Positions 5,839-21,855 of a stretch of 37,546 nucleotides of DNA are shown here, one piece after another. This stretch comes from a virus. The stretch lies in IMG/VR virus record IMGVR_UViG_3300029267_001488, positions 1-37,546 of that record. One strand, 5' to 3'. Every line of letters begins with the position of its first letter. Position 1 is the stretch's first letter. The notes beneath the pieces are model-generated. The model made no database searches. It was not told the origin of the DNA and saw only the letters and a list, made by a program, of their open reading frames with translations. The translations under genes were made by a program, and so were the position numbers.

Positions 5839-6033
5839 ATGACAGGATCACTTATTGGGGTTGTAGTTATATTTATATTAATAGGTGTTGGTATTTACGC
5901 TTTTGTTTCTGTTTATTCATCAAAAGATGACTTTGAAGAAATGCACAGATTACAGAGGGAATTATGGAGATTAGAAGAGGAAATGTTTGAATTGGAAAAA
6001 GAAATAGCAGAAAGAAATAGCAGAAAGAAATAG
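5839..6033 (+). CDS. Membrane-anchored coiled-coil protein
   Basis: 64 residues: one hydrophobic helix at about 4-26, then a highly charged heptad-rich helix (FEEMHRLQRELWRLEEEMFE). The layout resembles small spanin-, holin-accessory- or membrane-tethered-type phage proteins, but there is no lipobox or lysis-gene context. The stop codon lies within a 13-bp tandem repeat, so repeat-number change would alter the C-terminus. Confidence 0.55.
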   Translation: MTGSLIGVVVIFILIGVGIYAFVSVYSSKDDFEEMHRLQRELWRLEEEMFELEKEIAERNSRKK

Positions 6034-6039
6034 CAGAAA
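6001..6039. repeat. Three tandem copies of a 13-bp unit at a gene end
   Basis: GAAATAGCAGAAA occurs three times head to tail at 6001-6039, followed by a partial copy. As 13 is not a multiple of 3, the copies are read in different frames (the protein reads EIAER then NSRKK and stops inside the third copy). Slippage here would change the C-terminus of the membrane coiled-coil protein and the distance to the next ribosome binding site. Confidence 0.8.
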
Positions 6040-6060
6040 GAAATATTAAGGAGGAAGAAA

Positions 6061-8100: not shown

Positions 8101-8169
8101 ATGCACTTTAGTAATAAAAACAATAGGTTGATAAAAATAAAGTACGCGTTTAGAGAAAGGGAGAAATGA
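8101..8169 (+). CDS. Possible 22-residue basic peptide
   Basis: ATG 8101 with AAGGGG ten or more bases upstream; 22 basic residues (MHFSNKNNRLIKIKYAFRER...) overlapping the next start by ATGA. It may be a leader that couples translation to the metallopeptidase-like gene rather than a functional protein. Confidence 0.3.
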   Translation: MHFSNKNNRLIKIKYAFREREK

Positions 8170-8513
8170 AACCAATAATTATACGAAACGAAACCATACT
8201 GAGACTATTTTCAATATTTATGAAAATAGACGGCATCACTCTTTTTCCATTTATATTCATAATAAAAGACCCACCCAAAACTCTCCTTAACCATGAGACT
8301 ATACACTTCATTCAAGCGAAGGAAACCTTTATAATACCCTTCTATATCATTTATCTTTTTGATTTTATTAAACATTATATAAAGTACAGGGACACAAACA
8401 AAGCATACCATCTTATTCGATTTGAGCGTGAGGCATACGCCAACCAATTTGATGATCTTTACTTAAACCGCAGACAGAAACACAATTGGAGGAAATACAA
8501 TTATGTTAATTAA
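8166..8513 (+). CDS. Small HExxH protein (putative metallopeptidase)
   Basis: 115 residues. HETIH at 43-47 is the zincin HExxH motif; FEREAYAN at 86-93 offers a downstream glutamate as third zinc ligand, the spacing seen in minimal gluzincins. Two hydrophobic stretches (TLFPFIFII at 25-33, IIPFYIIYLFDF at 56-67) suggest membrane association. I recall a family of very similar small proteins in Bacteroidetes genomes with 'NHERIH..QQ.E' and 'FEREAY'. Its coding strand is G-poor, unlike the upstream genes. Substrate unknown. Confidence 0.55.
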   Translation: MKPIIIRNETILRLFSIFMKIDGITLFPFIFIIKDPPKTLLNHETIHFIQAKETFIIPFYIIYLFDFIKHYIKYRDTNKAYHLIRFEREAYANQFDDLYLNRRQKHNWRKYNYVN

Positions 8514-8528
8514 TAAAGGAGATACAAT

Positions 8529-8687
8529 ATGAAGAGTAAAGAAATCAGACGAGAGGAAGCAATATTAAGACAAAACAATAGAGATAAACTCTCACCACAG
8601 CAACAGTTGAAAATAATAAAGGAAAGAAGAGGTAACTCAGATAAAGAAATACAAAGATTACAAAAACAAATAAAGGACAGTAAATGA
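8529..8687 (+). CDS. 52-residue charged helical protein
   Basis: ATG 8529 after AAAGGAGATACAAT. The protein is nearly all K, R, E, Q and N (EIRREEAILRQNN-like helices) and would form a long polar helix or coiled coil. It ends by ATGA overlap with the next gene. Function unknown. Confidence 0.5.
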   Translation: MKSKEIRREEAILRQNNRDKLSPQQQLKIIKERRGNSDKEIQRLQKQIKDSK

Positions 8688-8911
8688 AACTCCCCATTTG
8701 CACCATTTGCAATAAACCCATTGATAAACTCACCTCTCAATACGACATCCTTAACCAACAACATATCTATGCTGCACACTGTCATAACGAAATAGAAATA
8801 ACCATCATACCAGATCTCCTATTAGAAAGAGCAACACACATCACAATAACTAAAGCATTCAAAAAGACAAGGAAGGAAATATGCCAAGAAATAAAGAAAC
8901 TATACTCATAG
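8684..8911 (+). CDS. Cysteine/histidine zinc-binding protein
   Basis: 75 residues with CTIC at 6-9 and a later AAHCH (residues 30-34), a likely Cys3His or Cys2His2 zinc site, then a helical basic C-terminus. Overlaps both neighbours. Unknown role. Confidence 0.5.
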   Translation: MKLPICTICNKPIDKLTSQYDILNQQHIYAAHCHNEIEITIIPDLLLERATHITITKAFKKTRKEICQEIKKLYS

Positions 8912-9078
8912 CATGCGCAGAACAACTAAGAGGGATCACAGACCACCGGGCTGGAGAACAATGGATTACTTGCCCAATATGTAAAGATACCTACTGCACA
9001 TGGAGACACGCACTCAACAACATCTGTCCCCTATGCGAACTAAAACAATATGAAAAAGAAAACAACACCCTCTGGTAA
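8881..9078 (+). CDS. Zinc-ribbon protein, last gene of the left block
   Basis: 65 residues. CPIC (31-34) and CPLC (50-53), with a further C39, form a zinc ribbon. Start after AAGGAAAT inside the upstream gene (31-base overlap). It is the last gene before the 1.1-kb non-coding region and is followed directly by a G-depleted tract. Confidence 0.55.
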   Translation: MPRNKETILIACAEQLRGITDHRAGEQWITCPICKDTYCTWRHALNNICPLCELKQYEKENNTLW

Positions 9079-9345
9079 AACATATCCTCTCCCATCCCCC
9101 TATTCCTCTCTACTCAAATACCAATACATCCCTTTAAAGAAAACAAACCATACAAAACCACACAATTACTTTAGTATCCTCAATACATTATCCCCTTTTT
9201 AAGCATACCATAAAGCATACAATATTCTTCCCCATCACTCTCCTCCTCTCTCACCCCATCCTTTCTACCCCCTACCTTTACATCTAATCCTACTTATATC
9301 CTTCCTTTCCCTAACACTTTCAACCCTTTATACCTTCTCTATGAC
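9079..9345 (+). terminator. G-depleted, C-rich tract: candidate Rho-dependent terminator
   Basis: For about 265 bases after the last gene of the left block the plus strand has almost no G, while C and T runs abound (CCTCTCCCATCCCCC, CTCTCCTCCTCTCTCACCCC). An unstructured, C-rich, G-poor RNA immediately downstream of a translated operon is the hallmark of rut sites for Rho. No intrinsic hairpin plus U-run is seen here. Other explanations are replication-linked strand bias or a protein-binding tract. Confidence 0.45.
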
Positions 9346-9354
9346 CCAGTGCGG

Positions 9355-9495
9355 TATAATGAGAACCAATAGAGAAATAGAAGGAAAACCCACATGGAGA
9401 CACATACAGATACGGTTTCCAGTCAATACCTTAGAGAGATACCCAGCATAAAGACCCCCAAATTATATTTAGTAGAATATATACTTAGCATATAA
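9355..9495 (+). CDS. Possible 33-residue micro-gene with its own -10 box
   Basis: TATAAT stands at 9355-9360. An ATG at 9394, with AAGGA at 9381-9385, opens 33 codons ending in TAA at 9493-9495 (METHTDTVSSQYLREIPSIK...). There is no good -35 element and no homology to lean on. The coding part is 9394-9495; the interval given includes the promoter-like box. It could equally be non-coding leader before the repeats. Confidence 0.22.
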
Positions 9496-9628
9496 GAATA
9501 ATAGTTATCCCACAGAGAACCCTTGATTAAAAATATACGGGGGTTGATACTTTTTTTTAATATGACAGATAAACCCACTATATATGTATGGCGTTATTGC
9601 ACAAGCATTAAGCATACCAACCATACCG

Positions 9629-9748
9629 ATTATAATTTTATAATGGGTATGGGATAGGTTTATAATTTTATAATGGGGGCATTATAATTTTATAATGGGT
9701 ATGGGATAGGTTTATAATTTTATAATGGGGGCATTATAATTTTATAAT
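9629..9748. repeat. 52-bp tandem repeat carrying five AT-rich iteron boxes (candidate origin or control region)
   Basis: A 52-bp unit (9629-9680) is repeated exactly at 9681-9732, followed by a partial third copy. Each unit carries two copies of TTATAATTTTATAATGGG; the box is near-palindromic (TTATAA, TT, TTATAA). Box starts are at about 9630, 9660, 9682, 9712 and 9734, so spacing alternates 30 and 22 bases, close to three and two helical turns. Such phased iterons flanked by a perfect dyad are typical of replication origins, partition sites or repressor arrays. No initiator gene is adjacent. Confidence 0.75.
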
Positions 9749-9764
9749 GCACATCCATGTGCAT
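9747..9764. repeat. Perfect dyad directly after the iterons
   Basis: ATGCACAT-CC-ATGTGCAT: 8-bp arms with a 2-bp centre. It abuts the last iteron box, so it likely belongs to the same protein-binding or origin structure. Too tight a loop for a stable RNA hairpin, so a dimeric protein site is likelier. Confidence 0.6.
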
Positions 9765-9779
9765 AGTAGTAAAGACAAC

Positions 9780-10010
9780 TAGGCTCCCCTCACCAGCCCA
9801 GGGTATGGGCACTTGAGTAAAACAGACACCAAAGGGCATAGGGGGGTATGGATCCTTCAGCCGCAGGATTTGGAAAGGGTAGGGGGGTCCTCCTCACAAA
9901 TTACAGCCCAAATACAGGGCCACCCGATTCCGCACCTTCTGAGGCCACTCCTATCCGACTGCGCTCACATATTGAGGTGACCCTGAGGCGCAGAGTGAAA
10001 ATGATAATCC
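9780..10010. other. GC-richer, hairpin-dense non-coding segment
   Basis: This stretch is visibly richer in G and C than the surrounding genome and holds several inverted repeats: GCCC-agggtat-GGGC (from 9797), ATCCT-tcagccgc-AGGAT (around 9851-9869), GCCC-aaataca-GGGC (around 9906) and TGCGC...GCGCA (around 9958-9993, closed by TCA/TGA). Two G-run motifs (GGGCATAGGGGGGT, AGGGTAGGGGGGT) lie between them. No open frame of note. It could be a structured RNA or an origin or packaging element. Confidence 0.4.
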
Positions 10011-10086
10011 ACATTTAGGCCATATAATAACCATACCCTAACCACACTTTAGCCACAACTCAGCCAGCCCACCCTCAGGAGAAATA

Positions 10087-10190
10087 CCATTAATAGTATC
10101 CCACAGATACCATTCCACGGTATCCGGTGGTTGAGTATTAAAAATATTCCTATTAATAGGCATGAAACCCTTCCATTAATGGGCATGAAT
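10087..10190. promoter_or_regulatory. Palindromic operator-like sites
   Basis: CCTATTAATAGG (10149-10160) followed by CATGAA, and CCATTAATGG (10173-10182) followed by GCATGAA, are two perfect palindromes sharing a downstream motif and centred 23 bp apart. A third half-match (CCATTAATAG) is at 10087-10096. The ATTAAT core with two-turn spacing suits a dimeric repressor, perhaps one of the two RHH proteins in this window. They lie 45-140 bases before the next open frame. Confidence 0.45.
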
Positions 10191-10225
10191 GTCAACACGG
10201 TGCATAAAGATTGACATGGGTATAA

Positions 10226-10675
10226 ATGTGTAATAGTGTTTGGGATATGAGGAGGGCATACCACACCACAGTACAGGCAAGACATCTCATGTGTGACCTA
10301 CACGCCTGTGAACTCCACCATAAATACTTTAGTAATGAGTTATATATTAGAAACCTCCTTCTTTATGCGGCTCGATGTGGCAGTATGTTAGTCCGAGGCC
10401 ATGAGACTCATATTATAGATGGCATCCAGGGCGTCCAATGCACCATCATTAGTGATCTTGGTTATATAACCCTCTGCACCATCCCAATTGACAAATATGC
10501 CACCTGTGACGTATACTCCTACTCCCAAAAACACCATCCCACTCGCTGCATGGATCATATAATAGGCTCCCTTCAATCCACATTGCCAGTGATTTATGAG
10601 ATAAATCGAGGGCGAGCCATTGACCTTCTCCGCAATTGTGATGATGTTTGCGAAGAGAATATGCCCCTCAACTAA
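10226..10675 (+). CDS. Doubtful His/Cys-rich ORF, 149 residues
   Basis: A 149-codon open frame, long for chance in this DNA, encoding a protein rich in His and Cys (HACELHHKYF, SQKHHPTRC) with no recognised family. TTGACA at 10211-10216 lies just before the first ATG, so if it is a promoter the real start must be downstream, e.g. ATG 10247 or 10289; none has a clean ribosome binding site (GAGGAGGG at 10249-10256 is poorly placed). Its base composition (C above G) differs from most plus-strand genes but matches the flanking non-coding DNA. Either a divergent accessory gene or a non-coding region with a chance frame. Confidence 0.35.
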   Translation: MCNSVWDMRRAYHTTVQARHLMCDLHACELHHKYFSNELYIRNLLLYAARCGSMLVRGHETHIIDGIQGVQCTIISDLGYITLCTIPIDKYATCDVYSYSQKHHPTRCMDHIIGSLQSTLPVIYEINRGRAIDLLRNCDDVCEENMPLN

Positions 10676-10759
10676 CCATAACGGCTTGATAATAAACGGT
10701 GAGCATAGATGTAGTGTATGGTATGTGCGATATAATGTTATAAAAAATTTATATAACGG

Positions 10760-10788
10760 TTGACTGGATACGGTTATAGTGTTATAAA
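10760..10788 (+). promoter_or_regulatory. Sigma70-type promoter of the deazaguanine operon
   Basis: TTGACT at 10760-10765, a 17-base spacer, and TATAAA at 10783-10788: the best-matching promoter read in the window. Transcription would begin near 10795 and produce a leader of about 245 nt before the RHH gene at 11042, covering a small ORF and a long stem-loop. Confidence 0.65.
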
Positions 10789-10841
10789 AATATAAGATTA
10801 TAATGGTTCATTGTAAACAAGAAATAATGAGAGGGGACTTC

Positions 10842-11041: not shown

Positions 11042-11260
11042 ATGAATGAGGGAACCACAATTCATATAACACCTGAGAATCGTCAGGCATTGAAATTAGA
11101 GAGTGTGAAGAGAAACATCACAATGCAAACATTAGCGAATGAAATAATCGCTTCATTTTTTAACGCCAATCCTGTTGTGCTACCAAAAACAATGGAAGAA
11201 CTCTACCCAGATACTGGTAGTGATGTGGCAATGAAAACCGAAACACCAGTGGAGGAATAA
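11042..11260 (+). CDS. Ribbon-helix-helix (CopG/Arc-type) protein
   Basis: 72 residues. 'TTIHITPENRQALKLESVKRN' and the following TMQTLANEIIASFF give a beta strand and two helices with the RHH pattern; the C-terminal 25 residues are acidic and flexible. RHH proteins bind DNA as dimers. As first gene of the operon, one base before folE, it is probably its autoregulator, possibly acting at the ATTAAT palindromes upstream. The start is set by AGGGG/GAGAGG upstream. Confidence 0.62.
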   Translation: MNEGTTIHITPENRQALKLESVKRNITMQTLANEIIASFFNANPVVLPKTMEELYPDTGSDVAMKTETPVEE

Positions 11261-11842
11261 ATGGCTGATTATGAAGAGAATATGGCAATTGATTTAAGTG
11301 ATATGGAACAATATATAAAGGATATGTTATTTTGTATAGGAGAGGACCCCAAGAGGGAAGGTTTATTAGAGACCCCACGGCGTGTACTGAAGAGTTGGAG
11401 GGAGTTATATAGCGGATATGGACTTGACCCATCGTCTATCCTTAAGACCACCTTTGCCGATGGTGCTTGCAAGGAAATGGTCATATGCAGGGATATAGAC
11501 TATTTTAGCATGTGTGAGCATCATATTCTACCATTTTACGGCAGAGTCCATATTGGGTATATTCCAAACAGTCGTGTTGTGGGGTTATCTAAACTCCCTC
11601 GTTTAGTTGAAGTGTTTTCCAGACGCCTGCAAATACAGGAGAAAATGACCGCCCAAATTGCTGACACTTTAATGGAAGTATTGCAACCCAAAGGCTGCAT
11701 GGTCATTGTAGAGGGAAAACATATGTGTATGATGGCAAGAGGTATAAAGAAACAAAATTCCATTATGACCACTTCAGCCATAAGAGGCGATTTTGAAAAG
11801 GCACAGGTAAGAGAGGAATTTTTAAATTTAATTAAATTATGA
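11261..11842 (+). CDS. folE: GTP cyclohydrolase I (FolE)
   Basis: 193 residues, full length for type IA FolE. It converts GTP to 7,8-dihydroneopterin triphosphate, the first step of both folate and 7-deazaguanine synthesis. Visible hallmarks: GEDPKREGLLETPRRV at 27-42, the zinc and active-site segment SMCEHHILPF (C85, H88), IGYIPNSRVVGLSKLPRLV at 98-116, QEKMTAQIADTL at 126-137 and the second zinc cysteine in HMCMMARG (C156). Strong ribosome binding site (GGAGGAATAA). In this operon with DpdA- and QueD-like genes its role is almost surely supply of deazaguanine precursor, not folate. Confidence 0.97.
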   Translation: MADYEENMAIDLSDMEQYIKDMLFCIGEDPKREGLLETPRRVLKSWRELYSGYGLDPSSILKTTFADGACKEMVICRDIDYFSMCEHHILPFYGRVHIGYIPNSRVVGLSKLPRLVEVFSRRLQIQEKMTAQIADTLMEVLQPKGCMVIVEGKHMCMMARGIKKQNSIMTTSAIRGDFEKAQVREEFLNLIKL

Positions 11843-12768
11843 TAGTACCATTTAAGACACCAGTTGATTATTTCACTCAAGCTCTGGATGGCAAACCAGA
11901 GAACATAAATAGGTTTTATCAAATTCAAAAAGATGACCCGCAGTGGCTAACATATGATAATGATTTACATATTTATCCATACGTTCATGCCGTTCCCTCA
12001 ATGCTCTCTATGGGGTGTAATAATAAATGCAAATTCTGCCCAACTGCTAAGTTACATAAAGGAAAGGTACATTTTGGCGATCCAGAAATTATAATACCAA
12101 ATTATAAAAATATGAATATTCATTTCATGGATGAGAATTTCTTCCGAAATGATATGGATGTGGTTTTACCGTTGTTAAGAAAATATAAAATAAAATGGCT
12201 GGCAATGTCCACATATAAAGAGACAATGAAGGTCATAGAAACATATAGTGAGGAATATTTATATAAATGCGGACTCAGATGTGTAGAGATGGGATTGGAG
12301 AATGTTGATTTAATGATGAAAGTGGATGAGGCGCCCTATTCATTTGATGAAATTGCACCGTATTATTTAAACATGACCTTCCTCCCCGGGGAGACTAAGG
12401 AAACAATTCTAAATAATGCTAAATGGATGAGAGAGAGGATGCGTTCTTTAGAGCATCCCATTCATTTTAATAACGGTGTTTGGTGGGCACCTGGTCAATT
12501 TTATTATCCATATGGTAGAAAGCATAAAGATGGAATAATGTTAGATGGCAAATACGCAAGGACACAACCCACATATATTCCAAACTCTTTTTTAGATCAG
12601 GATATGGAGATAGTGGATTTAGAAGATGTTAATTATCATAGCCAGTTAACATATGACTTTAAACTATATCCAGAGAAGGATGAATACAACATAAGAGAGT
12701 TCATCTCAGGTGATGTAAAAAGAGCAATGTGGGTTGTTGTTGGATTGAGGGTGGAGGGTATAGAATGA
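11839..12768 (+). CDS. Radical SAM enzyme of the deazaguanine operon (not canonical QueE)
   Basis: 309 residues. C60, C64 and C67 (MGCNNKCKFCP) form the radical SAM CxxxCxxC. Downstream, IHFMDENFF (94-102), VEMGLEN (149-155) and FLPGETKETI (181-190) match the TIM-barrel layout of the MiaB/B12-radical-SAM/Elp3-like branch; there is no N-terminal cobalamin-binding domain. QueE, which would be expected here to make 7-carboxy-7-deazaguanine, has a QGEG...GCNLxCxWCDT pattern that is absent. So it either replaces QueE or further alters the deazaguanine or a sugar. Start overlaps the folE stop; end overlaps dpdA by ATGA. Confidence 0.8.
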   Translation: MIVPFKTPVDYFTQALDGKPENINRFYQIQKDDPQWLTYDNDLHIYPYVHAVPSMLSMGCNNKCKFCPTAKLHKGKVHFGDPEIIIPNYKNMNIHFMDENFFRNDMDVVLPLLRKYKIKWLAMSTYKETMKVIETYSEEYLYKCGLRCVEMGLENVDLMMKVDEAPYSFDEIAPYYLNMTFLPGETKETILNNAKWMRERMRSLEHPIHFNNGVWWAPGQFYYPYGRKHKDGIMLDGKYARTQPTYIPNSFLDQDMEIVDLEDVNYHSQLTYDFKLYPEKDEYNIREFISGDVKRAMWVVVGLRVEGIE

Positions 12769-13625
12769 AATTATATTTGGCTGGTTATGAAGTACAGCAT
12801 AATAGTTATAAATTATTACTACCCAAAGAGACAAATGTATTTTTGACATTTTATTATCCAAGAGAGGCATCAAAATTACTTCCCAAGTTAAAACCAGATG
12901 GACATAAAGGAACAATTATAATTGATAGTGGAGCGCATAGTTTCTTTGGCTATATAGGATTAAGTGTAACCTCATTTCATAAAAAGACAGGAAGTCATGA
13001 AAGTCCACATAGTTATTTTAAAAGGTATTTGGAATGGCTAAAGGAAAATTATGATTTATATGATTACTTTGTGGAGTTAGACCTACAGGAACTTGTTGGA
13101 TATGAAGAGGTTGAGAAATGGAGAGATGAATATAAGAATGCTGGAATATTTGATAAATGTATATTGGTTTATCACTCTAAAGATGGGTTTGAGAAGTTTG
13201 AATACATTGTGCATCGAAGTGATTGTAAATATGTAGGGATTGAAGGTATAAGAGGTCAACAAATCCTTCCTTATAATAAATATATTAAATATGCGTATGA
13301 CAATAATTGTAAAATACATGGATTCGCCTTCACTCGTTTTGGTTTATTAAATAAGTATCCATTTTATTCCACAGATAGTTCCTCATGGACAATTGGAGTT
13401 CGATATGGAAAGACTTGCGTATTCAATGGAACAAAGGGAATGAATGTTATTACATCCACTAAGAAAAACTTTATGAATTATAATTTAGATATAGAGATGC
13501 ACAATAGTAAAAGAGCAATTGAGAATTGTAGAATCAAGAGTCTTCATAATGCAAATGAGTATTTAAAAATGGAAACGTATTTAACAAACCTTTGGACGGC
13601 GAGAGGTATTAAATGGAAAGATTAA
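12765..13625 (+). CDS. dpdA: DpdA-like DNA-guanine transglycosylase (TGT superfamily)
   Basis: 286 residues. The start at 12765 (after GGAGGGTATAGA) is preferred over an in-frame ATG at 12729. Features shared with phage DpdA: 'MKLYLAGYE' at the N-terminus, IIIDSGAHSFF at 51-61 (the LDSGG-like Asp of TGTs, D54), VELDL around D106, YVGIEGIRG at 156-164, and HGFAFTRFGLLNKYPFYSTDSSSW at 185-208, the family's HGFGxTS...YPWYSxDSTSW block with candidate nucleophile D204. TGT-fold enzymes exchange guanine for a 7-deazaguanine; DpdA does so in DNA. Its place among folE, queD-like and ParB genes supports DNA modification. The exact base inserted is unknown. Confidence 0.82.
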   Translation: MKLYLAGYEVQHNSYKLLLPKETNVFLTFYYPREASKLLPKLKPDGHKGTIIIDSGAHSFFGYIGLSVTSFHKKTGSHESPHSYFKRYLEWLKENYDLYDYFVELDLQELVGYEEVEKWRDEYKNAGIFDKCILVYHSKDGFEKFEYIVHRSDCKYVGIEGIRGQQILPYNKYIKYAYDNNCKIHGFAFTRFGLLNKYPFYSTDSSSWTIGVRYGKTCVFNGTKGMNVITSTKKNFMNYNLDIEMHNSKRAIENCRIKSLHNANEYLKMETYLTNLWTARGIKWKD

Positions 13626-14581
13626 TATTCGTACCAATTGAACCGTTAGAAGAACGATACAGCACACAATGGATAAAATGGTTTAGAGAAGAGTTTAAGA
13701 AAAGGGATATACAATTCATAGAGGTTGGTGACGATAAACCAAGGGAGATCACTACAGGACAGTTCCTAGATGTTTACGACACCAACCTATATAAACTCAA
13801 TCAACTAACTCAGATCATAGAGTATATTAAGCTAGGGTTTGAAGGGACCATATTCTTTATGGACTTGTGGTTCCCAGGGATTGAGACAATAGCATATATT
13901 AGGGACTGTGCGAAGCGAATGATAAGGGTAGAGGGCATACTGCATGCGGGCACATATGACCCTAATGACTTCTTAGCCCAGAATGGGTGCGATATATGGG
14001 GCGCAGACCTAGAAAAGTGCTGGTTAAAGTGGGTAGATAGGGTATATGTAGCCACAGACTATCATAAGGCCCTTATAGACCACACTAGAGGGTCATATGG
14101 GCGTATAGAAGTGGTCCGTTTCCCTTGCTATGTGGGTGAGCAGAGGGCTGAGGGAGAGCGATTAAATAGGGTAGTGTTTCCGCATAGGCTGGCCCCTGAG
14201 AAACAGCCAGAGGTCTTTAGAGAGGTGGAGCAGAGGTATAGAGAGCAATACGGGGATGATGGGACTGTATTTGTACGCACTAAGGATGTATGTAAGAGTA
14301 AGGCCGAGTATTATACTCTTTTGGCTGAATCAAAGGTAGCCTTTTCCAGTGCTCTGCAAGAGACATTTGGAATAGCAATGTTAGAGGCATATAATCTAGG
14401 ATGTATCCCTGTTGTGCCCGACAGGATAAGTTATAAGGAAACATTTAAGACCATAAAAAGGTATACATCCCTAAAGGAAGCAATTGAGATGGTGCATAAT
14501 GGCATTCACAATTATAAACAACCACCATTGAGTGAATATGTTGAGGATGTAAGTGATATAGTGAGGAGGATAGTTATATGA
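13613..14581 (+). CDS. GT-B glycosyltransferase (GT4-like) in the DNA-modification operon
   Basis: 322 residues. The C-terminal domain carries the GT4 signatures: VVFPHRLAPEKQPEVF at 187-202 (donor-domain start), then ALQETFGIAMLEAYNLGCIPVV at 247-268 with the EX7E motif (E250, E258), which binds the nucleotide-sugar donor. The N-terminal domain would hold the acceptor. It overlaps dpdA by 13 bases and the queD-like gene by ATGA. In T-even-type phages glycosyltransferases decorate modified DNA bases; here the context suggests a sugar on a 7-deazaguanine or on its precursor. The central part is visibly richer in G and C than the flanks and the neighbours, suggesting separate acquisition. Confidence 0.8.
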   Translation: MERLIFVPIEPLEERYSTQWIKWFREEFKKRDIQFIEVGDDKPREITTGQFLDVYDTNLYKLNQLTQIIEYIKLGFEGTIFFMDLWFPGIETIAYIRDCAKRMIRVEGILHAGTYDPNDFLAQNGCDIWGADLEKCWLKWVDRVYVATDYHKALIDHTRGSYGRIEVVRFPCYVGEQRAEGERLNRVVFPHRLAPEKQPEVFREVEQRYREQYGDDGTVFVRTKDVCKSKAEYYTLLAESKVAFSSALQETFGIAMLEAYNLGCIPVVPDRISYKETFKTIKRYTSLKEAIEMVHNGIHNYKQPPLSEYVEDVSDIVRRIVI

Positions 14582-14937
14582 CTATAACCAAAGCAGATGA
14601 AATGTTTATAATAGTCAGTTTACAATTTGAAGGAATTCATCAATGGTCTAAATGCAATATAAAGGAAGTAAGTTTTCTAAGAGAACCGCATCGGCATATA
14701 TTTTATGTAGAAGTAATGGTTCGTGTTGGTCATGATGATAGAGATATTGAAATCATACAACTCAAAAGACAAATAGAAAAGTATATTAAAGAACAAGTAT
14801 GTTATCATGATAATGATTTAAGGGATAAGAGTTGTGAAATGATTGCACGACAACTATTAGAAAAATTTAATGCCCATAGCGTTAAAGTATTAGAGGATGG
14901 AGAAAATGGCGCATTAATTAGGAGAAGTTATGGATGA
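14578..14937 (+). CDS. queD: QueD-like (6-carboxytetrahydropterin synthase / PTPS fold) protein
   Basis: 119 residues. The zinc triad of the PTPS fold is visible as H21 (FEGIHQW) and H38/H40 (EPHRHIF). GHDDRDIE (51-58) and the C-terminal LEDGENGA (105-112) match a phage and actinobacterial QueD-like subfamily. QueD turns dihydroneopterin triphosphate into 6-carboxytetrahydropterin. The catalytic cysteine four residues before the HxH (C27 in E. coli QueD) is a leucine here (L34), so activity may differ; C26 is a possible substitute. Operon position between the glycosyltransferase and ParB-like gene. Confidence 0.7.
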   Translation: MTITKADEMFIIVSLQFEGIHQWSKCNIKEVSFLREPHRHIFYVEVMVRVGHDDRDIEIIQLKRQIEKYIKEQVCYHDNDLRDKSCEMIARQLLEKFNAHSVKVLEDGENGALIRRSYG

Positions 14938-15619
14938 TATTAATTTATTGGTTGACTTTAGTAAGTATAAATTAGTAAAGGTTAAGGATTTAATATTAGC
15001 CGATTGGAACTATAAAGAAGATGATGAACAATTGCTCGATAATTTAATACAAAACGTAAAGAGAAATGGACAGGTTGAGAATGTTATAATTCGACAATTG
15101 GCTGACGGCAGATATGAGGTCGTTAATGGAAACCATAGGCTGATGGCATTTCAGAAAATGAAACTAGAACAGATCGTTGCATATGATTTAGGAAGTGTAT
15201 CTTTAAATGAAGCAAAACGATTGGCAATTGAGACAAATGAAACCAAGTTCAAGGTTGATTCTATTAAACTTGCTCACACCATGAGTGACTTATTAAATGA
15301 ATTCGATAGAACAGATTTACAATCCACCATGCCTTATAGTGATGATGAAATAGACAATTTTGGTAAACTATTGGACTTTGATTGGAATGAATTTGATAAA
15401 GAAGTAGACGAATTAGAACAAGAAGTGAACCCAAGCGATATGTTTGCTATTACTTTAGAACTACCCGTTGGATTAGCAAAGAGGTTGAATGAGCAAATAG
15501 ATCGCATAAAGAAAATGTTACATCCTGATGAAGCGCACCTAGAAAAGATAAGTTATGTACAGCCAATTAATAAAATTGTGGAGTGCGTAGAAAGAATGGA
15601 GAAAGAGGAGATTGTTTAA
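14930..15619 (+). CDS. ParB/sulfiredoxin-fold protein (DpdB-like candidate)
   Basis: 229 residues. Residues about 14-110 form a ParB N-terminal domain: YKLVKVKDLILADWNY, LLDNLIQNVKRNGQVENVIIR and the box YEVVNGNHRLMAF (62-74), where GNHR stands for the usual G(E/H)RR/DGQHR; then EAKRLAIETNETKF. The C-terminal half is helical and acidic. In bacterial dpd islands DpdB, a ParB-like ATPase, is needed with DpdA to place preQ0 in DNA, so this last gene of the operon may play that part. Phages also carry ParB-domain proteins with other roles. Ribosome binding site AGGAG. Ends tail to tail with a minus-strand gene, stops overlapping. Confidence 0.72.
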   Translation: MDDINLLVDFSKYKLVKVKDLILADWNYKEDDEQLLDNLIQNVKRNGQVENVIIRQLADGRYEVVNGNHRLMAFQKMKLEQIVAYDLGSVSLNEAKRLAIETNETKFKVDSIKLAHTMSDLLNEFDRTDLQSTMPYSDDEIDNFGKLLDFDWNEFDKEVDELEQEVNPSDMFAITLELPVGLAKRLNEQIDRIKKMLHPDEAHLEKISYVQPINKIVECVERMEKEEIV

Positions 15620-15780: not shown

Positions 15781-16044
15781 CTAAACCAAATCCTTAACGG
15801 TCTCATTATAATGTTCGTATGCATCTTGTCTATTATTCTTGTCGGTGAAATAGTGACCCCATTGGAGGTCGTTATCTATAAGAGTGATGACGACATATTT
15901 ATCTTTGCCTTCTTGTTTATATGTGGCTAGGAGTTTAGCCTGTCTGTCATCATACTTATGGAGAGCGAGTAGTTCAGTTGATGTTCCAAATACTCTTACT
16001 AATGCCTCTACAGCATTTACTATTAATATGTTATTTTGATTCAT
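15781..16044 (-). CDS. Unknown 87-residue protein (minus-strand block)
   Basis: Start after AAAAGGAGGAAACA. Alpha/beta composition: helix (LLIVNAVEALVRVFG-like), then strands (KYVVITLIDNDLQWGHYF). The gene overlaps the upstream one by 4 bases. No family recognised. Part of the array of about 13 tiny minus-strand genes, probably early-expressed accessory functions. Confidence 0.55.
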   Translation of the reverse strand: MNQNNILIVNAVEALVRVFGTSTELLALHKYDDRQAKLLATYKQEGKDKYVVITLIDNDLQWGHYFTDKNNRQDAYEHYNETVKDLV

Positions 16045-16280
16045 TGTTTCCTCCTTTTAAATTTATAAACGTAATCAGCAATACAGTCTGCCATATAACC
16101 AACAGGATCAGTAATATGTTTCCGTTTCAAATATGCTGCTATCTCTTTTTCAAACATTAACGTGCCTTCCGCAATTTCATAACACATATCGTCATGATAG
16201 TTTTCACCCATATCGGTTGCTAAATCTTCTGCTGTGTCTTTGCATAATTTCTGTATTTTGTTTTCCATTCGTTTACTCAT
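16041..16280 (-). CDS. Unknown 79-residue protein
   Basis: An upstream in-frame ATG (16307) exists, but the ATG at 16280 follows AAAGGAGGTGTT and is preferred. Mostly helical, mixed charge, with two cysteines and a DDMCYEIAEG segment. No family recognised. Confidence 0.55.
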   Translation of the reverse strand: MSKRMENKIQKLCKDTAEDLATDMGENYHDDMCYEIAEGTLMFEKEIAAYLKRKHITDPVGYMADCIADYVYKFKRRKQ

Positions 16281-16290
16281 AACACCTCCT

Positions 16291-16797
16291 TTATTCATCA
16301 CAGTCATCTATAGATGTATCAAACCATTTCATAACGGTTGATAATACATGGTTATAATCACCGCTGGTTGCCTCTTTCATAAACTCATCAACCTTCTTTT
16401 TAGGGTACCCCGCCCGCCTCAATGTCCTTTGTGCTCGTCCGAGTATTGCGAATGTGTTTCCATCTTCACCCAACAAATTCAATTTAGGTTTGACCCCTAA
16501 TTCACTTTTGGCTCTTTTATCCCATTCAAAAGGTACATTATTCTCAATGTTGTAAGCAATTTCGCATTCCTCTTCGTTGTCATTATCGAAATAAATTACA
16601 ACATCGAGATAAGTGCCAAAGTCATGTGGACATCTTTTAATACCAAACTTCATATCGTTTATTAACTTGAAGTTCCGTTTGAGTTGGTTAATAAATGCCG
16701 CACATTCTTTTTGCGCCTGTTCGTGATAGTTTGGTTGACCTAATTGAGCGCACTCTTCTTCGGGAGGAGTGCTACCTAATGATAAAAAGTCTTTCAT
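16291..16797 (-). CDS. Conserved-looking phage protein with GNTFAILG...EATSGDYNH motif
   Basis: 168 residues, the largest of the minus block. The middle (FGTYLDVVIYFDNDNEEECEI) is beta; the C-terminal third contains DGNTFAILGRAQRTLRRAG (about 110-128) and EATSGDYNHVLSTVMKWF (about 142-159), a pattern I recall from hypothetical proteins in many phages and conjugative elements, function unknown. Start after AAGGAGGTAAATT. The N-terminal 40 residues appear flexible. Confidence 0.6.
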   Translation of the reverse strand: MKDFLSLGSTPPEEECAQLGQPNYHEQAQKECAAFINQLKRNFKLINDMKFGIKRCPHDFGTYLDVVIYFDNDNEEECEIAYNIENNVPFEWDKRAKSELGVKPKLNLLGEDGNTFAILGRAQRTLRRAGYPKKKVDEFMKEATSGDYNHVLSTVMKWFDTSIDDCDE

Positions 16798-16800
16798 AAT

Positions 16801-17184
16801 TTACCTCCTTGGATAATCGTTTGGGTTAAGGCCAATCTTATTTATGTTCTTTAATAAAAGTGAATAGTTTCGTTCTAATCTGTCACCAAATTTCCTAACG
16901 AATTTTCCTAAACTACCCTTACGCTTACTACAATTGCTTATCAATTCTCCTAACGTGATTTCAAATTCACCTTCAGCGATCACGCTAATATGTTCCTTTT
17001 TAGATACCGTAATAACAAAAGTGTGTTCAAGTGATTCGTGTAACCAATGTACCCCTTCTGCGCAACAAACAATAACACCTTTCGGTCCTTCAATAACTAC
17101 TAACTCATGTTGGAAATGTGTTGTCCATCCTTTCTCTTTTTTCTCAATGTACTTCTTTACGTTATAAATATTTACTCTTTTCAT
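16801..17184 (-). CDS. Unknown 127-residue protein
   Basis: ATG 17184 after GGAGGGTTAAC is preferred over a farther in-frame ATG at 17283. The N-terminal half is beta-rich (HELVVIEGPKGVIVCCAEG, HTFVITVSKKEHISVI); the C-terminal half is a basic helical region (KRKGSLGKFVRKFGDRLERN). No family recognised; the basic tail may bind nucleic acid. Confidence 0.55.
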   Translation of the reverse strand: MKRVNIYNVKKYIEKKEKGWTTHFQHELVVIEGPKGVIVCCAEGVHWLHESLEHTFVITVSKKEHISVIAEGEFEITLGELISNCSKRKGSLGKFVRKFGDRLERNYSLLLKNINKIGLNPNDYPRR

Positions 17185-17185
17185 G

Positions 17186-17443
17186 TTAACCCTCCTTTCG
17201 TTTGGGTTGATAAATAAAATACTTTCCTTTTGTCTCAACATATTCCCAAGCCGTTCCAGCAGGACCGGGTATGATTTTGTCACATGACCTTATCTCATTA
17301 AGGTATATACCTTTATTAAGATCGAAGAAGCGTAAATGGAACCTCTTCGTCTTCATCTCTTGTTTAAGAGAATTAGCATACCAATATACTCTGATGGCAT
17401 AAGGTGTGTTGGGTGAAACCAACCAATCCCTAATTATTCTCAT
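17186..17443 (-). CDS. Unknown 85-residue basic protein
   Basis: Start after AAAGGAGGAAGT. Aromatic and basic, with a GPAGTAWEYV turn. It overlaps the upstream gene by 4 bases. No known domain. Confidence 0.5.
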   Translation of the reverse strand: MRIIRDWLVSPNTPYAIRVYWYANSLKQEMKTKRFHLRFFDLNKGIYLNEIRSCDKIIPGPAGTAWEYVETKGKYFIYQPKRKEG

Positions 17444-17673
17444 ACTTCCTCCTTTATATTATCCAACTCCTCCTTCAACTCTAACAATTCTTTTTCATGC
17501 CATTCACTCAATGAGTCGCCAGCCATATCAATTGAGTTCTCGATAGGAAGATATACTTGGTTTTGGTAACAAACTTTAAGAGTCTCTTTTGGGTTTCTTT
17601 GAAAGGCAGCCATAAGAGAATCCAAAGTCCCAGTTTCAATTTCTTTGTTTATATCTTTGCAAAAAATACTCAT
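17440..17673 (-). CDS. Unknown 77-residue protein
   Basis: ATG 17673 after AAGGAGGTATGT is chosen over an in-frame ATG at 17778. The first half has an IFCKDINKEIETGTLDSLM segment; the C-terminal third is a strongly acidic coiled-coil-like helix (EKELLELKEELDNIKEE). Unknown function. Confidence 0.5.
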   Translation of the reverse strand: MSIFCKDINKEIETGTLDSLMAAFQRNPKETLKVCYQNQVYLPIENSIDMAGDSLSEWHEKELLELKEELDNIKEEV

Positions 17674-17683
17674 ACATACCTCC

Positions 17684-17959
17684 TTATTTGTTAATTTTAT
17701 TTTCGATTGGAATATAAATTGTGTATGTCCTATTTTGTTCTTCGTCATCGCAACATATAATCCATTCATCAGACCCATCGAAGTGTTTAATTATTTTTCC
17801 TTTTACGAACTGTTTCATGTTGTTAAATATTCTTTTTCCTTTTTTGCCTTCTCGATATATACCGCGACAGCCGCAAGCACATCCACACCGACCGGAATAG
17901 ATCTTTTTAATATCTTCTAATTTAATCTTTTCAAAAATTGCGTGACTTAATTCTTTCAT
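17684..17959 (-). CDS. Cysteine-rich 91-residue protein
   Basis: ATG 17959 after AAGGAGGTATTT. Contains the tight cluster RCGCACGCRG (C25, C27, C29, C31) and a later WIICCDDEE, enough cysteines for a zinc or iron-sulfur site, flanked by basic residues. The C-terminus is beta (RTYTIYIPIENK). The CxCxCxC spacing is not that of the zinc ribbons in the left block. Unknown function. Confidence 0.5.
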   Translation of the reverse strand: MKELSHAIFEKIKLEDIKKIYSGRCGCACGCRGIYREGKKGKRIFNNMKQFVKGKIIKHFDGSDEWIICCDDEEQNRTYTIYIPIENKINK

Positions 17960-17969
17960 AAATACCTCC

Positions 17970-18149
17970 TTAATTTTTATAATATAAAAGGTTAAGTTGC
18001 TCGAAGAAATCACCTATCATATCTGAGTGATCCCATTCGGGGACTTCATTTAACTCCTCAATGAATTCAATAAATAGTTTTTCATTTTTACATTTGCTGT
18101 ATATTAACTCTGCAATGTCCTCTACCATTTTTGCTTGTTTTACTTTCAT
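17970..18149 (-). CDS. Unknown 59-residue acidic protein
   Basis: ATG 18149 preceded by AAGGAGGCATGT; stop TAA at 17972-17970, just before the next ribosome binding site. Acidic and helical (VEDIAELIYSKC, LFIEFIEELNEVPEWD), ending in aromatic residues. The spacing and ribosome binding site match the neighbouring genes exactly, so it is real despite its size. Confidence 0.55.
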   Translation of the reverse strand: MKVKQAKMVEDIAELIYSKCKNEKLFIEFIEELNEVPEWDHSDMIGDFFEQLNLLYYKN

Positions 18150-18159
18150 ACATGCCTCC

Positions 18160-18402
18160 TTATTTTGTTAAAGACTTTAAAATAGTTTTCTCAATTTTAT
18201 AGCTTGCGTTATCAAATGCTCGCATAAATTCATAATCCATTTCGCCCAATTTATATTTCTTTAGTATTGAATCAAGGTTGATGTTTGCTAACTCGTCAAT
18301 CCACCAATCTTTCATTACTTCTTTTAAATATTTCTTAACCTCCTTTCTTAATTTTATTTCCAATTCGTTTTCTAGCCTTTTTCTAAACTCTTTTTTATTC
18401 AT
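18160..18402 (-). CDS. Unknown 80-residue helical protein
   Basis: Start after AAGGAGGGATGT. Very charged helices (RLENELEIKLRKEVKKYLKE) with a central WWIDELANINL segment. No recognised family; possibly a small protein-protein interaction module. Confidence 0.5.
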   Translation of the reverse strand: MNKKEFRKRLENELEIKLRKEVKKYLKEVMKDWWIDELANINLDSILKKYKLGEMDYEFMRAFDNASYKIEKTILKSLTK

Positions 18403-18416
18403 ACATCCCTCCTTAA

Positions 18417-18674
18417 TTAATCAATAATGTAAATTGCCTTTTTCTTTTTAGGCACAAACCAATAGTCTTCAAAATAGACACGAACATCATTTACTTTTCC
18501 ATCACCAACAATACCCGCATATTGTTTCGCTGCTTTATAATCATAATCAAAATACTCTTCCTTACCTTCTTTATTGATTGCAAATATGGTTCCCAAAATA
18601 CCCATCCTGAATGCCAGCCTATGTTTCTTCGTTGGCTTCATTTGTTTTGCTTCAATCCCTAATATTGTTTCCAT
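18417..18674 (-). CDS. Unknown 85-residue protein
   Basis: Start after AAAGGAGGGGTT. Beta-rich with basic and aromatic residues (VRVYFEDYWFVPKKKKAIYI near the C-terminus). No motif. Member of the minus-strand small-gene array. Confidence 0.5.
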   Translation of the reverse strand: METILGIEAKQMKPTKKHRLAFRMGILGTIFAINKEGKEEYFDYDYKAAKQYAGIVGDGKVNDVRVYFEDYWFVPKKKKAIYIID

Positions 18675-18684
18675 AACCCCTCCT

Positions 18685-18966
18685 TTATTTTGTTAACTTT
18701 TTATATCCTTCATAAACTAATTGAGATAATTTATAATGATCTGGACTTAATTGAGTGTCAGCCATAAACATTATCGTCTCTATTTCATCTTCTTCTAATT
18801 CTCTTATTGGGTTGTTAAGATTTATTGCTGGACCTTCTACAATTTCATCACCGTCAACATCATAAAAAAGTGCAGTGTGTCTATTCACATGGCCTAAATA
18901 AAAACCATAACCATAAAACCCCGTTAGATATAAATACTTTGCATATTTAGTTGTGAAGTGTTTCAT
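18685..18966 (-). CDS. Unknown 93-residue protein
   Basis: Start after AAGGAGGTATTT. N-terminal half is Tyr/Gly-rich beta (YLYLTGFYGYGFYLGHVN), then an acidic helix (IRELEEDEIETIMFM). No family recognised. Confidence 0.5.
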   Translation of the reverse strand: MKHFTTKYAKYLYLTGFYGYGFYLGHVNRHTALFYDVDGDEIVEGPAINLNNPIRELEEDEIETIMFMADTQLSPDHYKLSQLVYEGYKKLTK

Positions 18967-18976
18967 AAATACCTCC

Positions 18977-19360
18977 TTATTTGGTTCCTAATAAAATAAC
19001 GTTTTCTTTATTGACTATGTTTTGGACTTGATTGTATTTCATCGAGCAATATGATTTGGTATCCTCATACATATACCATTCACCGCATGCTGTAATTTTA
19101 AACTCCGTATTTGTATTCTGATCTAAATAAACTAAACTATTTCCTCTCTCCCTTCTTTCCTCTTTTACTTTTTCCTCTGCCTCAAGTTCCTCATTCATTC
19201 TCCATATGCTGTCAACTAATGTGAATGTGAAATAATTAATATGAACTTTTTTGCTTCCCTTCTTTATCTCAATACCAAATGCTGTTATGTTTATTATTTT
19301 AAATTTCCTTTTGCCTATGAGTATTATTTCTCCTACTCTTGGTTCTATAAATTCTTTCAT
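18977..19360 (-). CDS. Unknown 127-residue protein, first gene of the minus block
   Basis: Start after AAAGGAGGTGAAAAGGA, nearest to the divergent promoter region. N-terminal beta domain (EIILIGKRKFKIINITAFGIEI), a charged linker (ELEAEEKVKEERRERG) and a second beta part. No known domain. As promoter-proximal gene it is expected to be the most highly transcribed of the block. Confidence 0.55.
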   Translation of the reverse strand: MKEFIEPRVGEIILIGKRKFKIINITAFGIEIKKGSKKVHINYFTFTLVDSIWRMNEELEAEEKVKEERRERGNSLVYLDQNTNTEFKITACGEWYMYEDTKSYCSMKYNQVQNIVNKENVILLGTK

Positions 19361-19430
19361 TCCTTTTCACCTCCTTTAACTATAATGGTATATGGTTATA
19401 TTTATTTAATTATATAATGATTATTTTGCT

Positions 19431-19458
19431 ATTATATAAGGTATGGACCGGATTACAA
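19431..19458 (-). promoter_or_regulatory. Promoter of the minus-strand small-gene block
   Basis: On the minus strand TTGTAA (19458-19453), a 16-base spacer and TATAAT (19436-19431) make a good sigma70-type promoter about 70 bases before the first gene's start at 19360. Confidence 0.55.
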
Positions 19459-20152
19459 AGTTTAATCCAAATAATGGAGTAATATTAGATATTTATAAGG
19501 TCGTAAACTGGGCATCAAAATAAGCGGTTGACAAATGGATTTCCCAGTAAGAATAAGTATTTATAAGGGTGATTCTTGAATGTAATAATATAGTAATAAT
19601 AATGAGTTATAAGGGAAAAAGTTTTCTTGACAGGTGAAATTTGCCAGTAATTGCTGTTATTTAAAAGGGTGTTGTTTGATTCAACTTTACCAATAAATTC
19701 GGGGTGTTATATTTTGTATGTAAAACACTAATAATATTAATAAGATATACACCAAGAAAAATGGCTGAAAAATAACAGTAATATTAGGGGTTTAAAAAAA
19801 GGACTTGACGGATAAAGCATTGAAATTACTATGAAAATTTTTTGTATTTTTGGTCATAATTATAAATTATTCTGGATAGTTATAAAACACCTTACAAAAA
19901 ATCGCAAATTTAAGAAACCCTTGTAATACAGTATTCATGGAGTGTTCGGACGGCGCCCTCGGAAACCTAGATGAACAAAGGCGTACAGAGGATTTTGTTG
20001 TAAAAAATGGGTGAAAATGTGGAATTTCCTTGACATTTGAATATTACAGTAATTCCAAAAGGATATACCCTCTTTTTTCTCTTGATTAATACACTGGGAA
20101 ATCATATACTTTGGCGATTTTAAATAATGTAATTTGTATTAAGGAGGAAATT
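19441..20152. promoter_or_regulatory. Divergent control region with repeated TTGACA...CAGTAA elements
   Basis: The 790-base gap between the divergent genes has no convincing ORF. TTGACA followed 11-12 bases later by CAGTAA occurs at 19528, 19627 and 20030; the first two share a further TATTTA(T/A)AAGGGTG about 24 bases downstream. TTGACG (19805) with TACTAT 16 bases later is a conventional promoter. A (T)TATAAGG motif recurs at about 19434, 19493, 19561 and 19607. These look like tandem promoters or regulator sites controlling the 20153 gene and perhaps later operons. A short GC-richer stretch at 19945-19985 is unexplained. Confidence 0.5.
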
Positions 20153-21654: not shown

Positions 21655-21855
21655 ATGGAAGAGGATAATAAACCACGTAAAACTGTCTCAACCACGTTTA
21701 ATATGCGTACAGACCTTCGCTCAAAGGCTAAAGTTTATATCGCTATGATGAATCAAAAGATTGAAGAAAAAGAACTTGACGCCGAAAAGGTAAACATGGG
21801 TATTCTTTTAAATAAAGCAGTAGAACAATATCTAAATGAAATAGAAATAAATTAG
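21655..21855 (+). CDS. Ribbon-helix-helix-like small protein upstream of terL
   Basis: 66 residues. 'TVSTTFNMRTDLRSKAKVYIAMMN' followed by an acidic helix and VNMGILLNKAVEQYLNE resembles a CopG-type RHH (strand, helix, helix) with an insert. It sits seven bases before terL, where a small terminase gene usually is; it could regulate the packaging operon or help terminase bind DNA. TATAAT at 21609-21614 upstream has no good -35 partner. Confidence 0.5.
   Translation: MEEDNKPRKTVSTTFNMRTDLRSKAKVYIAMMNQKIEEKELDAEKVNMGILLNKAVEQYLNEIEIN

Follow-up and report, generated by a model that had tools for sequence, protein, structure and literature searches.

A helix-phased array of AT-only boxes in a viral contig, a candidate operator-type site linked to a DNA-modification operon

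The box array and its genomic setting

The window, that is, the whole stretch of DNA analyzed here, is an entire IMG/VR virus record of 37,546 bp, which has no end repeats and is probably a fragment of a larger genome. Its left side consists of a block of small + strand genes, its right side carries a terL-portal-capsid structural module, and a block of small - strand genes lies at 15781-19360. A 7-deazaguanine DNA-modification cassette occupies positions 11261-15619 on the + strand (folE, radical-SAM queE-like, dpdA-like, glycosyltransferase, queD-like, and ParB-like genes), and the first gene of this operon (11042-11260, +) encodes a 72-amino-acid (aa) protein with an RHH-like sequence pattern, our candidate binder. 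An S-adenosylmethionine decarboxylase-like gene (10226-10675, +; Pfam E=7e-9) adjoins the cassette. Ribosome-binding-site-like sequences precede 62% of the listed genes versus 18% for the background, a frequency that fits, without proving, a bacterial host. Two 100% identical contigs were found, and they span the structural part only. Elsewhere in the contig, a perfect 13-bp tandem repeat of 3.7 copies (5998-6045, +) spans the 3' end of the open reading frame at 5839-6033 and could shift the frame, its unit not being a multiple of three. A second large non-coding region, divergent, at 19361-20110, shows repeated TTGACA/CAGTAAT and TTTATAAGGG elements ~46 to 100 bp apart and is another candidate for a regulatory or origin function.

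The array itself (9629-9749, +) lies in the gap 9079-10225, the largest non-coding region of the contig; the closest gene start is 460 bp away, and no clear promoter lies alongside. It is made of a 52-bp unit (9629-9680), an exact copy of this unit (9681-9732), and a partial third copy of 17 bp (9733-9749), for which Tandem Repeats Finder gave a score of 242 with 100% matches. The repeats form five boxes of the type A/T-TTATAA-TT-TTATAA-T on the + strand (starts at 9629, 9659, 9681, 9711, and 9733), each made of two self-complementary TTATAA hexamers with their centers 8 bp apart. The exact TTATAATTTTATAA core of the boxes, at 9630, 9660, 9682, 9712, and 9734 (spacings of 30, 22, 30, and 22 bp), is confined to the array within the whole contig. 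With up to two mismatches, the contig holds 18 matches versus 3.57 +/- 2.1 in shuffles, those outside the array falling in just a handful of places, and TTATAA pairs at 8 bp number 11 in the window versus 0.9 in shuffles. All boxes fall within ~70 degrees of one another on the helix at 10.4 to 10.5 bp/turn (resultant of 0.91), a phasing that is good, not extreme; 2.7% of random spacing pairs were phased equally well. Moreover, symmetric elements bound the array at both ends, box 1 sitting inside an extended dyad, CCATACC-G-ATTATAATTTTATAAT-G-GGTATGG (9621-9652, by direct reading), which can form a hairpin in both strands, and box 5 running into a perfect 8+8 dyad, ATGCACAT-CC-ATGTGCAT (9747-9764). 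Altogether, the architecture described in the initial annotation, an exact unit present twice plus a partial copy, five boxes with alternating spacing on one helix face, and an adjoining 8+8 dyad in the largest non-coding region, was fully recovered.

A second motif is clustered in the same region. Six of the 11 contig copies of the heptamer GGTATGG/CCATACC lie inside 9621-10037, at 9621 (-), 9646, 9698, 9802, 9845, and 10031 (-), and the other five are scattered. Among 2,280 heptamers of similar frequency, GGTATGG alone has at least five independent copies within 420 bp.

The boxes could also be read as repeated -10 elements (TATAAT) of tandem promoters or as transcript hairpins, and six TTTATA-N18-TATAAT matches do lie within the array, whose RNA folds reach z-scores of -6.5 (+) and -5.9 (-). 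However, these -10 matches arise from the box sequence itself, palindromes of this composition inevitably give AU-only hairpins, and no convincing gene starts just downstream. Moreover, nothing in Rfam was matched at the gathering score, with one chance match at E=1.8. Such a promoter or RNA element is therefore very unlikely, and the reading of the TATAAT density as tandem promoters was dropped since promoter counts in the window equal those of shuffles.

The search for relatives returned little. The exact 30-bp unit had no match in viral_contigs, distant blastn of 9079-10225 against phages gave no match, and the SpeD-like and RHH-like proteins used as baits retrieved no viral relatives. Relatives identified by TerL and capsid have the structural module in common and little else, and the TTATAA..TTATAA pair was found in none of them. 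One 72-kb relative (G009) carries 130-bp tandem arrays twice, in opposite orientation and ~50 kb apart (L053:1425-1851 and L055:12002-12414). Two-box patterns in viral_contigs led to AT-rich or PrgP/PrgO-type loci, and none of those inspected combined the 22/30 pattern with G-rich spacers. In the collections searched, no relative carried the array or the RHH-like gene, leaving a comparative test no material to draw on. This isolation would fit, and the identity of the unit copies would be expected, if recent slippage had duplicated a single palindromic operator in tandem, with no function attached to the duplication. We consider this unlikely given the helix-face phasing of the boxes, the flanking symmetry at both ends of the array, and the reappearance of the box ahead of an operon.

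Recurrence of the box before the RHH-like operon

Besides the array, a second box cluster (10730-10803, +) sits in the 366-bp gap preceding the RHH-like gene. It comprises ATATAAtgTTATAA at 10730 and an 8-bp-spaced run, TTATAGtgTTATAAaaATATAAgaTTATAA, at 10774-10803. Four box matches with up to two mismatches occur there versus 0.017 expected from local dinucleotide shuffles, none of 2,000 shuffles reaching four. These matches are imperfect, and three of them overlap, as 10774-10803 consists of four hexamers following one another every 8 bp, so that the cluster amounts to ~2 independent sites. Nowhere else in the contig is there such a four-hexamer run, which appeared in 0 of 200 whole-window shuffles. 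Of the other non-coding stretches, the five that were tested, some of them more AT-rich, gave no box match. By eye, a candidate sigma-70-like promoter, TTGACT-N17-TATAAA (10760-10788, +), places its -10 element within the box run; it is missing from the printed list of our promoter scan, for which matches in the window were not above shuffles. Provided that the regulator is the product of the RHH-like gene and that the promoter reading is right, the regulator's own operon thus has the box at its promoter. The initial annotation had offered an operator or a partition complex as one alternative, and the operator half of this proposal gained from the recurrence of the box before the RHH-like/folE operon, with GGTATG at 10720, 10 bp from the box at 10730, whereas for the partition half no ParA or ParM was recognized in this fragment.

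The leading candidate binder of the boxes is the putative RHH-like protein. Its RHH assignment is weak, with E=0.13 against Pfam Antitox_RHH (below the cut-off), a single-sequence structure model made of one merged helix, and no PDB match by Foldseek. Another small protein (21655-21855), modeled with low confidence as two helices, is unlikely to be an array-specific binder since relatives keep it beside terL. The ParB-fold protein had also been put forward as a partner of the array, a role for which it lacks specificity: the ParB-like gene co-occurs with folE, queD-like, glycosyltransferase, and dpdA-like genes in dozens of viral contigs, and the array box was not seen in the stretches fetched from them.

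Phased boxes and a self-regulating RHH protein would also fit a centromere-like site bound by an RHH protein acting with a ParA/ParM motor, as in the parC/ParR, omega, or PrgP/PrgO systems. In other, independent viral contigs, contiguous TTATAANN boxes in tandem lie just downstream of PrgP-like ParA (E=1e-60) and PrgO-like (E=8e-4) genes, both below NCBIfam curated cut-offs (L006:6204-6249 and also L008, L010, L135, L137, L139, and L141), where they are perhaps partition sites. These PrgP/PrgO-type partition loci (L006, L010, L135, L139, and others) resemble the array in having TTATAA hexamers at 8-bp spacing. Nevertheless, they are contiguous 8-bp runs placed directly beside parA/prgO-like genes and not pairs spaced by 22 and 30 bp, whereas no ParA, ParM, or TubZ NTPase was recognized in the present contig, which probably covers part of the genome, and its ParB-like gene belongs to the widespread modification cassette. 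A partition function of the array thus seems hardly probable.

Compositional skew and the origin alternative

Immediately downstream of the left operon's last gene, the + strand stretch 9079-9340 is almost devoid of G (4 G in 262 nt, with 37% C), and G, or C on the other strand, is scarcer there than in any equally long window of the other loci compared. Published criteria for Rho-utilization (rut) sites include a length of at least 70 to 80 nt, C exceeding G, regularly spaced C residues, and a lack of structure (PMC6407284). As RNA, the stretch is unstructured, a 146-nt piece folding at -1.8 kcal/mol, 126 of its 184 78-nt windows pass these criteria, and its C/G ratio is the highest on the + strand. 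It thus looks like a putative rut site, sharing with known ones its richness in C, its paucity of G, its lack of structure, and its location past the end of an operon; the stretch adjoins the array without being part of it.

This stretch bears on the claim that strand composition flips near the array. GC skew is indeed negative over 8172-9349 (segmentation change points at 8172, 9081, and 9349), but AT skew stays positive there and the global minimum of the cumulative GC skew falls at the contig start and not at the array. The local flip is likely due to the coinciding, almost G-free 9079-9340. A local GC-skew flip is consequently an unsafe sign of an origin since a stretch rich in C and poor in G, resembling a terminator, can produce one. 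The genes at 8166-9078 (+) have third positions rich in C rather than G while their AT skew is unaltered, which sets them apart from all other gene blocks, and were possibly acquired from another source. In the rest of the contig, GC skew follows the coding strand, on which its mean is positive on either side of the array. The third-position skew of + strand genes is 0.38 to the left of the array and 0.22 to the right (p=0.10). The skew pattern therefore does not support replication forks diverging from the array.

An origin of replication was the other role initially proposed. The boxes or the GGTATGG motifs would then be iterons for an initiator whose gene lies outside the fragment, the AT-rich boxes would provide an unwinding element, and the G-poor stretch to the left could aid R-loop priming. 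The array lies in the largest non-coding region, its AT-only boxes place it among the four least stable 120-bp stretches of the contig, and two repeat classes cluster within ~430 bp, a plan reminiscent of the lambda ori, in which iterons adjoin AT-rich DNA (PMC7466680). Moreover, the initiator could be missing because the contig is probably a fragment. However, GC skew is explained by the coding strand, + strand genes to the left are at least as G-rich as those to the right, which is, if anything, opposite to what diverging forks would leave, and no replication or initiator gene was recognized among the proteins scanned. The canonical DnaA box TTWTNCACA is absent near the array, one imperfect TTATCCCACA lying at 9505. 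Iteron origins such as lambda ori and P1/R6K-type plasmid origins share with the array direct repeats, phasing, AT-rich segments, an extra dyad, and a large non-coding region, but here no initiator gene, canonical DnaA box near the array, or origin-type skew was found, and the box is reused at a promoter-like site. Altogether, the origin reading found no support from these data, and we regard it as rather unlikely.

Operator reading and known systems

In our favored reading, to which we give a probability of about 45%, the array would be an operator-type nucleoprotein site, and the RHH-like protein, as candidate repressor, would act on its own modification operon while using the array in an auxiliary or titrating role. 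A box with two TTATAA half-operators 8 bp apart would suit a small repressor binding as two side-by-side dimers, and five boxes on one helix face would permit cooperative binding. Since the boxes at 10730-10803 overlap the likely promoter of the RHH-like operon, we infer that the RHH-like protein may repress its own DNA-modification operon there, while the array, ~1 kb upstream, could act as an auxiliary or titrating site, perhaps through looping. The tandem TTATAANN boxes beside ParA/PrgO-like gene pairs in several other viral contigs also speak for this reading. Against it stand the imperfect, partly overlapping matches of the second cluster, the weak RHH assignment, the distance of the array from any gene start, and the absence of both array and RHH-like gene from the relatives searched. 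The 7-deazaguanine pathway protects phage DNA from restriction (PMC6884629), and we found no description in the literature of the regulation of a viral 7-deazaguanine modification operon. Thus, if the operator reading is right, the contig would offer a testable repressor-operator pair for such an operon.

A further, highly improbable possibility would be a two-motif control center through which DNA modification by the virus is coupled to its replication or segregation. The boxes, devoid of G and C, are out of reach of 7-deazaguanine modification, while the guanines of the interleaved GGTATGG motifs could be modified, so that the site could register how the genome is modified and exert feedback on the modification operon.

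The operator reading finds its closest parallels in MetJ/Arc-type RHH systems. The RHH protein omega polymerizes on heptad arrays (PMC4803016), and the RHH antitoxin PrpA binds one shared 8-bp motif both at its own promoter and in the iteron array of an origin (PMC7848731), a precedent showing that operator and origin roles are not mutually exclusive. Compared with these systems, in which the operators form a continuous run, the boxes of the array are pairs spaced by 22 and 30 bp, no toxin or partition partner was seen, and the RHH-like protein is a candidate binder only. Features in common are short tandem boxes about one dimer footprint apart, their presence both at the regulator's own promoter and in a separate array, as would be the case here, and a small RHH-like gene heading the operon.
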